DNA of 64,000 nt, taken from positions 186,001 to 250,000 of the forward strand of contig NZ_FTOT01000005.1 of NCBI RefSeq assembly GCF_900156815.1. Reading direction: 5' to 3'. How positions within the stretch are numbered: the first letter of the stretch is position 1; each line of letters opens with the position of its first letter. Made by a program: the position numbers and the translations under genes. Positions 36,214 through 38,241 of the stretch are shown here, piece by piece. The notes below the pieces were generated by a model that was not told the DNA's origin, did no database searches, and worked only from the letters and a program-made list of their open reading frames with translations. The DNA comes from Gemmobacter megaterium. Lineage in GTDB: Bacteria; Pseudomonadota; Alphaproteobacteria; Rhodobacterales; Rhodobacteraceae.

Positions 36214-37878
36214 ATGGCATTCGATATGGGGGACGGCGGCATGACGGATACCGGGTTGGACAGCAAGCGGGCAAGACCAGAGATGCCCAAGCGCACCCAC
36301 CGCGCATTGCTGCTGATCGCGCTGTTCGTGGCAGAACTTGTGCTTCTCGCACTGGCCTACCAGTTTCTGGCAACCATCGACTGTTCCGCAACCGATGCGG
36401 AAACGACATGCCGTGGCCTGCGCAGCCTTGTGGCGCGGGCACTTGCGGTCTTTGCTGTGGCCGTCGTGCTGCTTTGGGCGCGCCCCGGCCTTGCCTCGCG
36501 GTTCGAGCGGCTGGCACGGCGACATCCGGCGCCAGGACAATGGACCGCGCTGCATCTGGGCGGGGTTGCCCTGCTGCTGGTCCCGCTGTTCGTGGCGGCC
36601 GGGGCGGACATGGCCCCGATGTTCGGCAGGCTGCTGCCCTTCTGGCTGGCCGGGTCTGCCGCCGCCGCAGTGGGCGCGATCCTATGGCTGGCCCCCCTGC
36701 CTGTCTGGCGCAAGGCTGCGGGCAAGGATGCGCCGGTGGTCGTCGGCGCATTTGCCGGGGCGCTTGTGCTGCCTGACCTGGCCGATCTGGTCTTGCCGCT
36801 GTGGTGGCACTGGCCACAGTTGACCGCGATGACCTTTCATGCGGTCGCCGGGCTGCTGGAACTCATTGGCGCGCCTGTCTATGAAGACGCCGCCGGTTAC
36901 ATTCTTGGCGCCGGGGATTTCTATGTTCACATCGCGCATCAATGTTCTGGCGTCGAGGGGCTGGCGCTCGTGACCGGATTCACGCTGCTCTATGCCGCGC
37001 TGTTCCGCGACCAGATCCGGGTGCCGCACTATTGGCTGGTGATCCTGCCACTGGGGTTGCTGCTCAGTTGGGCATTGAACGTGCTGCGGATCGCGGTGCT
37101 GATCGTGATCGGCGATCTGGTTTCGCCGGATCTGGCGGTGAACGGGTTCCATTCCTATGCGGGCTGGCTGTTCTTTATCCTGCTGGCACTGGGGCTGATG
37201 TGGTTTGTCCATTCCACGCCATGGCTGCACCGCACCCCGGCAGAGCGACCGGCCCCGCCCCCGTTGCGGCAGGACTGGGATGCCGCGCGTATCCTGCCCT
37301 TTGTGGCATTCATGCTGGTATCCACCGTCGCCGCGGCATTCTTTTTCCATCCAGAGTTGGGCTATCCACTCAAGGCTGCGGTGATGGCCGGGGCACTGGC
37401 ATGGTTTCTGCCTGCCTATCGCGGCCGGGACTGGCGCCCGACCGCACCCGCGCTGATGGTGGGGGTGGCTGTCGGGGCGTTCTGGATCGTCGCCGCGCCC
37501 GAAGACAACATGGATGCCTTTGTGGTGTCACAGCTTCTGACCGGGCTGAGCGAAACCGCCCTGATCCTCTGGATCGTCTGCCGCGTCGTGGGCACTATCG
37601 CCTTTGTCCCGCTGATCGAGGAGCTGTTCTTCCGCGGCTACATCCTTGCGCGGCTGGACCGGGGCGGGATGGGCTGGCGCATCGTGGCACTGGCGGTGTC
37701 CAGCGCGCTGTTCGGCCTGATGCATGGCAGGTGGTGGGAAGCGGCGCTGGCGGGGCTGGTCTTTGGCATTCTGGCCCTGTGGCGAGGGCGCCTGGCCGAT
37801 GCGGTCTGGGCCCATGTCGCCGCGAATGCCGTGGTCGCGGCCCTTGCGCTGTGGCGCGGGGACTGGGCACTGATCTGA
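36214..37878 (+). CDS. xrtE: Exosortase E fused to a CPBP-family intramembrane protease (VPEID-CTERM system)
   Basis: A 554-residue membrane protein with about 14-16 hydrophobic segments. The first part is an exosortase: Cys244 in HIAHQCSGVEG, Arg292 in NVLRIAV and His313 in GFHSYAGW form the transpeptidase-like triad. The last 200 residues are a CPBP (Abi/CAAX-protease-like) domain: Glu469-Glu470 and Arg474 in EELFFRG, His504 in GLMHG, and His534/Asn538 in HVAAN. This fusion is the known exosortase E/protease of VPEID-CTERM systems. The convergent gene after it encodes a protein with exactly such a C-terminus, so sorting enzyme and substrate are a pair. The ATG at 36214 is used; ATGs at 36226 and 36241 are also possible. 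Confidence 0.95.
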   Translation: MAFDMGDGGMTDTGLDSKRARPEMPKRTHRALLLIALFVAELVLLALAYQFLATIDCSATDAETTCRGLRSLVARALAVFAVAVVLLWARPGLASRFERLARRHPAPGQWTALHLGGVALLLVPLFVAAGADMAPMFGRLLPFWLAGSAAAAVGAILWLAPLPVWRKAAGKDAPVVVGAFAGALVLPDLADLVLPLWWHWPQLTAMTFHAVAGLLELIGAPVYEDAAGYILGAGDFYVHIAHQCSGVEGLALVTGFTLLYAALFRDQIRVPHYWLVILPLGLLLSWALNVLRIAVLIVIGDLVSPDLAVNGFHSYAGWLFFILLALGLMWFVHSTPWLHRTPAERPAPPPLRQDWDAARILPFVAFMLVSTVAAAFFFHPELGYPLKAAVMAGALAWFLPAYRGRDWRPTAPALMVGVAVGAFWIVAAPEDNMDAFVVSQLLTGLSETALILWIVCRVVGTIAFVPLIEELFFRGYILARLDRGGMGWRIVALAVSSALFGLMHGRWWEAALAGLVFGILALWRGRLADAVWAHVAANAVVAALALWRGDWALI

Positions 37879-37884
37879 TCAGAC

Positions 37885-37919
37885 GACAACGCCGCAGACC
37901 CATGGCCCGCGGCGTTGTC
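37885..37919. terminator. Shared terminator of xrtE and the VPEID-CTERM gene
   Basis: Perfect 11-base stem GACAACGCCGC (37885-37895) with GCGGCGTTGTC (37909-37919) around a 13-base loop, located between the two convergent genes. Confidence 0.75.
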
Positions 37920-37936
37920 TGTCATGGTTGCAACGC

Positions 37937-38173
37937 TCAGGCGCGGCGGCGATTGCGTTCCCAGGCAAAGGCCAGCGCCGCAGCGATGGCCGCCACGGCC
38001 AGCAATGCAGTCGATCCATCAATCTCGGGGACGGCCGCCGGGTTCGTCGGCGTCGTGGTCGAGCCACCGCGGCCACCACCCCACAGCCAAGTCAGCCAAG
38101 ACTGTGCCATGGCCGGGGCTGCGGACAGCGCCAGAACTGCGGCGGCAGCGATTGCAGAGTTAAGAGACTTCAT
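37937..38173 (-). CDS. VPEID-CTERM sorting-signal protein (exosortase E substrate)
   Basis: A 78-residue protein. Residues 1-24 are a Sec signal peptide (Ala-rich core ending AMAQ). Residues 25-47 are Trp/Gly/Thr-rich (SWLTWLWGGG, then STTTPTNPAA). VPEID is at 48-52, followed by an Ala-rich transmembrane helix (54-71) and the basic tail ERNRRR. This is the tripartite sorting signal recognised by exosortase E. After both cleavages only about 25-28 residues would remain, so the mature product is a tiny surface or matrix peptide. AGGAG is eight bases from the ATG, which also overlaps the stop of a 23-codon upstream ORF. Confidence 0.95.
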   Translation of the reverse strand: MKSLNSAIAAAAVLALSAAPAMAQSWLTWLWGGGRGGSTTTPTNPAAVPEIDGSTALLAVAAIAAALAFAWERNRRRA

Positions 38174-38241
38174 ACGGCAACTCCTGCGATTTCAATCATC
38201 TTGCCTTTGAAAAGCCAGAATTGCCCCTTGAAAACAAGCAT
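38170..38241 (-). CDS. Candidate 23-residue upstream ORF coupled to the VPEID-CTERM gene
   Basis: ATG at 38241 follows GGAAGGA and encodes 23 residues (begins MLVFKGQFWLFKGK). Its TGA overlaps the VPEID-CTERM ATG (ATGA). The coding run contains two similar units (LVFKGQ, LFKGK) built on CTTGTTTTCAAG and CTTTTCAAAG, each a small palindrome. It may serve translational coupling or RNA-level control rather than encode a functional peptide. The rest of the 246-base gap shows nothing else recognisable. Confidence 0.4.
   Translation of the reverse strand: MLVFKGQFWLFKGKMIEIAGVAV

Follow-up and report, generated by a model that had tools for sequence, protein, structure and literature searches.

The DNA analyzed here, a 64,000-nt stretch of the Gemmobacter megaterium genome (hereafter, the window), carries a convergent pair of genes that is a typical member of a system known in NCBIfam as exosortase E/protease, VPEID-CTERM (TIGR04162 and TIGR04161). 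One gene, xrtE, encodes a fusion of exosortase E with a glutamic-type intramembrane protease of the CPBP family, and the other encodes a 78-aa VPEID-CTERM protein, its predicted substrate. The best explanation, to which we give about an even chance, is that the pair forms a self-contained sorting module whose role is to put a short, tethered peptide on display. Beyond the family names, comparison with relatives adds a one-to-one rule for enzyme and substrate, a split into two types, an aromatic head-and-linker design of the substrate, forms of the substrate that lack a signal peptide, and an adhesin as neighbor of one type.

Both genes were found where the earlier note had placed them, and they converge as it had described, with stop codons 58 bp apart. 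xrtE occupies positions 36214..37878 of the forward strand (554 aa; alternative starts at 36241 or 36283), and the substrate gene occupies 37937..38173 of the reverse strand. An inverted repeat separating the two stop codons (37882..37923; fold of −26.3 kcal/mol) is a probable shared terminator, and the sequence upstream of the substrate gene includes an AGGAG ribosome-binding site (38181..38185, reverse strand).

XrtE matched TIGR04162 at 525.7 bits against a cut-off of 150, covering model positions 2–516 of 516, and it also matched TIGR03008 (89 bits), PF09721 (55.8 bits), and, at residues 453–540, PF02517 (60.6 bits). Its catalytic-type residues, for which the numbering given earlier was correct (Cys244, Arg292, His313, Glu469, Glu470, His504, and His534), were invariant together with Asn538 in 57/57 aligned sequences, an alignment that excludes G304, a genome whose xrtE has an in-frame stop. 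In that genome, the match (G304:C76:48928-50469, locus L140) contains one in-frame TAA. His534 and Asn538 were nearly invariant in a separate set of 28 rows, one of which stops short of both. Judged by its sequence, XrtE carries the features of exosortase E, namely a full-length model match, catalytic-type residues, and a CPBP domain. Near the N-terminus, Cys57 and Cys66 were invariant in 17/17 rows, with Cys66 alone at ≥95% in the 57 rows; the two are possibly a disulfide pair. A structure model of XrtE (pLDDT 87) gave no usable structural match.

The substrate matched TIGR04161 at 45.1 bits (cut-off 33) over residues 48–78 of 78; both window proteins are over the curated cut-offs, and the pair shows no difference from the NCBIfam system. 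The protein reads in three parts, all on the reverse strand. A predicted signal peptide (residues 1–23, 38105..38173, cleavage between MA and QS), clear by rule and by eye here and lacking in some relatives, is followed by a 24-residue core (38033..38104), QSWLTWLWGGGRGGSTTTPTNPAA, in which an aromatic head, QSWLTWLW, precedes a Gly/Thr/Pro-rich linker. The sorting tail (37940..38032), which aligns with TIGR04161 positions 1–31 of 31, comprises the VPEID motif, a single hydrophobic helix, and a basic end. With cleavage at the predicted points, the product would have 24 residues without VPEID or 29 with it (2.5–3.1 kDa), in agreement with the tiny product of about 25–28 residues that had been proposed. 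The [VAI]PEI[DSN] motif occurs once in the six frames of the window. The search for other VPEID C-termini that the earlier note had suggested was run on the 4.17-Mb genome and found none: the single TIGR04161 match was the window's 78-aa protein, and a profile built from ten full-length relatives returned the same place at E 8e-32, with the next best at E 0.037. The earlier claim that the exosortase E/VPEID unit is complete and that its one tiny substrate is dedicated to it was borne out, with both models over cut-off.

We then compared enzyme and signal across relatives. Among 390 genomes of the order, the signal was found in 43, always once, and the enzyme in 44; 41 had both, 344 had neither, two had the signal only (G353 and G516), and three had the enzyme only (G011, G441, and G540). 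This co-occurrence gave a Fisher p of 2e-49, a value that ignores relatedness and linkage. A partly overlapping sample of 195 relatives had the signal in 20 genomes (19 once; G031 four times), the enzyme over cut-off in 22, and both in 19, with the signal alone in G052 and the enzyme alone in G011, G021, and G170. Next to xrtE in G011, G441, G021, and G170 lie tiny candidate partners that TIGR04161 missed. A single, tiny substrate, which the earlier note had singled out, is therefore true of this genome and is not particular to it, being the family norm (once in 43/43 positive genomes of the order sample). One clear large cargo was seen in a distant relative, G540 (L172 10290-10901), in which a protein of ~200 aa with a VPEVT tail lies beside a distant xrtE; this enzyme lineage therefore does not demand tiny substrates. 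The two genes are unlinked yet both kept in G038, G477, and G432. In G038, xrtE is a neighbor of rpoC, and ~2.5 Mb away on the contig the substrate gene neighbors rpsL (rpoC and rpsL recognized by eye), an arrangement that reads as retention of both halves following a rearrangement. Among viral contigs, 12 pattern matches yielded 0 confirmed cases. Of 72,556 plasmid records, 13 matched xrtE, none covering >80% of the query in one place, and 12 of these 13 carry the gene name xrtE; of the five neighborhoods inspected, four include polysaccharide genes and the fifth does not, and the gene order marks one or more of the four as type II.

Two arrangements of the pair could be distinguished, and a quick tree separated type I (32) from type II (20) across a branch (SH-aLRT 91 and 85). 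Type I is convergent in 33 places, including the window and three of G031, with G051 alone divergent. The gap between the matched parts is 7–801 bp, and ≤159 bp outside G031, whose fourth substrate is located elsewhere. At least four genomic contexts were seen for type I: an oligopeptide ABC transporter with an SLT-type lipoprotein (own genus); rpoC-rpsL; a gene for MipZ; and a setting with an MsbA-like ABC transporter on the upstream side and, on the downstream side, an efflux-type pump, recognized by eye as were rpoC and rpsL. No third gene family was common to these contexts, barring a cluster of unlike ABC ATPases. That candidate partner was rejected, as single-link clustering had merged the oligo_HPY ATPases of the own genus with the MsbA-like transporters of the Roseovarius branch, which we read as an ABC-fold artifact. 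In the window, the neighbors scanned (~28.1–46.0 kb, within about 8 kb of the pair) encode oligopeptide ABC, SLT, PHO4, aldehyde dehydrogenase, NUDIX, APH, aminotransferase, and RsfS proteins; no polysaccharide gene was recognized among them, and two had no Pfam match. The adjacent SLT-type lipoprotein, suggested earlier to open peptidoglycan for export of the peptide, was dropped as a partner of the module. Its homologues lie near xrtE (E 1e-10) in 5/67 relatives' stretches, all from the own genus, and in 4/80 named loci from the same organisms, and the pair occurs elsewhere without it; it is a neighbor in the own genus only.

From the 186 named loci found, the best 80 were used; being the ones closest to the window, they are mostly type I. 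In 15/77 of them (L194, L200, L206, L211, L217, L218, L224–L226, L233, L242, L243, L247, L251, and L253), xrtE has an MsbA-like ABC transporter a short way upstream; the transporter is also seen at L055 9588-11402, and one of the 15 was typed via its relative G048. G011 encodes an OlsE-like hydroxylase that scores below its cut-off, and G170 has a homologue of it. The transporter and the hydroxylase are a possible hint at a lipid acceptor. A substrate was found by pattern in 74/80 named loci and not in L179, L182, L183, L221, L241, or L248.

The substrate cores, whose boundaries and lists were set by rule and by eye, share an order. Where a signal peptide is present (51 distinct cores), W/F/Y made up 26.3% of the N-terminal half and 5.4% of the C-terminal half; in 17 cores without a signal peptide, the values were 38.1% and 1.0%, and 0/5000 within-core shuffles were as extreme in either set. 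At least two aromatics stood in the first half of 36/51 and 16/17 cores, respectively, and 9/51 cores with a signal peptide had no aromatic residue at all. Trp reached 10.6% in cores with a signal peptide and 9.0% in those without, versus 1.45% in neighboring proteins, and Gln came first in 38/51 of the distinct signal-peptide-bearing cores. Relatives conserve the design of the core, an aromatic head followed by Gly/Ser/Thr/Pro, and not its exact residues. Some relatives keep the head and lack the signal peptide. The first in-frame start lies ≤32 codons before the motif in 14/74 named loci, or 13 without L244, which has an additional signal-peptide form, and the aromatic heads remain. VPEMD/VPEID proteins of ~55 aa, apparently without a signal peptide, were seen in L204, L214, L216, L227, L228, L234, and L246, and by look likewise in L196, L209, and L236. 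Most of these begin with M and then W or F, and the Roseovarius form L234 starts MFDWFW immediately after a stop codon. Without a signal peptide, translocation of the N-terminal tail would be needed, and survival of the head in these forms speaks for the head as the working part.

In type II, the substrate gene precedes xrtE, both being on one strand (18 genomes), and a large SdrD-B-like adhesin adjoins the substrate in 22/22 loci: the 18 and those of G477, G432, G353, and G516 (L067, L069–L072, L074, and 16 further stretches; also L235). The last four genomes have VPEIS tails, with xrtE elsewhere (G477 and G432) or not found (G353 and G516), and the adhesin is still adjacent. No adhesin was found beside the substrate in the remaining searched substrate stretches of relatives, and among the 80 named loci, only L235, where the gene order is also type II, had one. 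By tail, the adhesin accompanies 20 of 21 VPEIS/IPEIS loci, the exception being G170, as well as two VPEID loci (G087 and G529). On the plasmid of Alloyangia pacifica, an SdrD B-like protein, a 69-aa hypothetical protein, and xrtE follow in order among polysaccharide genes. Type II cores have 7–26 residues by rule (median, 12.5) and lack Trp in 22/22. Outside this set, in G170, the locus without the adhesin, the core is down to ~5 residues. In the 195-genome sample, adhesin matches >100 bits came from the six type II genomes and from two genomes without a listed xrtE match, G067 and G005; the genome of the window has none >100 bits.

In a scan of 10, these adhesins combined SdrD_B and Ig-like domains, often together with cadherin-like ones, and they have no evident signal peptide. 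Their C-terminal region is conserved, with a Cys in 23/24, a Gln in 24/24, and a final C-x-C in 23/24, a set that includes G067 and G005. We take the Cys/Gln motif to be linked to a thioester domain; the Pfam TED domain was over cut-off in 1/10 adhesins scanned (G071, 27.6 bits versus 22), and a thioester domain in the type II adhesin is only a lead. Disulfide tethering of the adhesin through Cys pairs was considered and rejected: C-x-C is present in 23/24 adhesins, but two Cys occur in only 8/22 type II cores.

Taking these observations together with what is known of exosortases, we can postulate how the module works. The 78-aa precursor would insert in the inner membrane and lose its signal peptide, after which the exosortase half (Cys244/Arg292/His313) would cut at or near VPEID. 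Exosortases are thought to transfer cleaved substrates to an envelope acceptor, and XrtE would probably pass the short N-terminal part to an acceptor of this kind, while the CPBP half would probably make a second cut, for example to remove or shorten the stub left in the membrane. On display would be a tether of 24–29 residues, an aromatic head on a flexible linker with an anchored C-terminus, and the head could cling to surfaces, to polysaccharide, or to a further layer of the envelope. In type II, a few residues replace the head, and the tiny peptide would probably help to display the neighboring giant adhesin. Perhaps, then, the peptide serves adhesion or polysaccharide retention, as the aromatic head, the polysaccharide neighbors on 4/5 plasmids, the type II adhesin, and published roles of PEP-CTERM proteins suggest; the available parts of two reports describe PEP-CTERM proteins that hold polysaccharide at the cell (PMC12188702, PMC9850573). 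Against this explanation stand the 9/51 cores without aromatics, the large cargo of G540, the absence of a recognized polysaccharide neighbor at the window, and sub-cut-off matches to PrsK and PrsR, regulators of the PEP-CTERM/XrtA system (best in the own genome, 86.1 bits against 300 for PrsK and 348.6 bits against 502.6 for PrsR).

Other readings of the pair were weighed against the same evidence. In one, which we rate as rather unlikely, XrtE sorts no proteins and instead installs in the envelope a short peptide anchor that holds a further partner in trans. In type II, this partner would be the giant SdrD-B adhesin, which apparently lacks a signal peptide and has its conserved Cys-x-Cys end behind a thioester-domain-like region; in type I, it would be polysaccharide or a surface, bound via the Trp-rich head. 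If this is true, Gram-negative bacteria would have here a two-piece system of surface display, whose enzyme, anchor peptide, and passenger each come from a separate gene.

It is likewise doubtful that the tiny protein, instead of being sorted as cargo, works together with XrtE or with some other protein of the envelope, acting as a membrane-resident adaptor or as a pseudo-substrate that gates the enzyme. Such a role would fit a tail that is the most conserved part, a core that can shrink as far as in G170, and a type II protein that stays with the adhesin where xrtE is elsewhere or not found. However, the tail has the complete form of a sorting signal, and the conserved composition of the core, an aromatic head and a Gly/Ser/Thr linker, would be needless for a mere tail carrier.

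We think it still less probable that the product is a secreted signal or antimicrobial peptide, with other cells as the target of a Trp-rich 24–29-mer freed by XrtE, and with the CPBP half providing maturation or self-protection. Short membrane-active peptides are similar in size and in Trp-richness, and the CPBP family is named for bacteriocin processing. Across five species of the genus, heads differ strongly while tails stay 71–100% identical to that of the window, which speaks for this reading. The MsbA-like transporter close upstream of xrtE in 15/77 named loci could be an exporter, but it is limited to a single genomic context, and the contexts compared showed no immunity-like gene traveling with the pair. 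The single copy per genome (43/43) and the Trp-free type II cores located with an adhesin (22/22) also argue against secretion. Finally, decay from a larger PEP-CTERM-like system, in which the substrate lost its cargo and the pair now drifts, would account for the great variation of the cores, the large cargo in one relative (G540), and the in-frame stop in the xrtE of G304, but it is very improbable given catalytic-type residues that are invariant in 57/57 sequences (G304 excluded), both genes being kept in 41 genomes, also after splitting, and an ordered head and linker across many genera.

A lead on regulation came from the DNA upstream of the substrate gene. The element TGGCTTTTCAAAGGCA (38202..38217, reverse strand), its first base 44 nt before the substrate start, has a GG-N10-GC form and is sigma-54 promoter-like, and this GG/GC spacing equals that of the −24/−12 form of PEP-CTERM genes as given in the accessible portion of PMC1569441. 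In the same source portion, the average distance between that sigma-54 form and the start of the PEP-CTERM gene downstream of it is 71 nt (PMC1569441), and a sigma-54-type promoter was shown for pepA of Aquincola in the text available of PMC9850573. The pattern TGGC-N7-WGGC, picked post hoc after inspection of upstream regions, occurs upstream of 15/91 non-type-II substrates versus 1.3 expected, in rows that are related and with three occurrences on the other strand. In the 64-kb window, it occurs 27 times over the two strands, one of these being the site at −44 of the substrate, and the genome has PrsK and PrsR matches only below cut-off. On a sigma-54 scale, sites scoring ≥16 were present for 18/91 type I substrates versus 4.3 in shuffles and for 0/22 type II substrates versus 1.0; the strict TGGCN8TGC form gave only 5 versus 2.7 expected.

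We also compared the pair with known sorting systems. It resembles PEP-CTERM/EpsH (XrtA), as that system appears in the parts of the sources at hand, in its exosortase core, its tripartite C-terminal signal, and a possible sigma-54-type promoter (PMC1569441, PMC9850573, PMC12188702). The same parts link PEP-CTERM/EpsH to exopolysaccharide (PMC1569441, PMC9850573, PMC12188702), whereas the window has one substrate, a 24-residue core, no recognized polysaccharide neighbor, and PrsK and PrsR below cut-off. Four fusions of EpsH-like and CAAX protease-like domains had already been reported in 2006, according to the portion available (PMC1569441). Like the MrtJ/JDVT-CTERM two-gene system, in which the accessible text describes one sorting enzyme adjoining one target with sporadic spread, XrtE is paired one to one, and as a type the two are alike in this pairing only; MrtJ is a CPBP protease, whereas XrtE has an exosortase fused in front of its CPBP domain (PMC11980579). 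The genome of the window also has a second exosortase, XrtD (TIGR04152, 672.7 bits; L260, G000:C11:20415-21179), of the XrtD/VPLPA-CTERM system, and XrtE is therefore not its only sorting enzyme. XrtD belongs to the exosortase family too and is followed by a protein reading PIPLPA near the end of the fetched stretch (by eye). Unlike XrtE, it has an EpsI-type domain and no CPBP match listed, and the protein that follows it has at least about 190 residues. A literature search, with most subscription papers outside its reach, found no paper naming VPEID-CTERM or xrtE in this sense, no experiments on the VPEID-CTERM/XrtE system, and none on PEP-CTERM with exosortase in Rhodobacterales.

The acceptor of exosortase substrates is a standing question, and the available part of a 2025 paper says only that exosortases may act as transpeptidases (PMC11980579). 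The pair in the window makes a direct answer possible: with one enzyme, one substrate, and a product of ~3 kDa, the product and its C-terminal attachment could be weighed intact by mass spectrometry. Two further ideas can be tested, that an aromatic head on a flexible linker is the working part and that the adhesin is the partner in the sister type. Since a single, tiny substrate is usual for this enzyme family, the pair would be a simple place to learn what such enzymes do.
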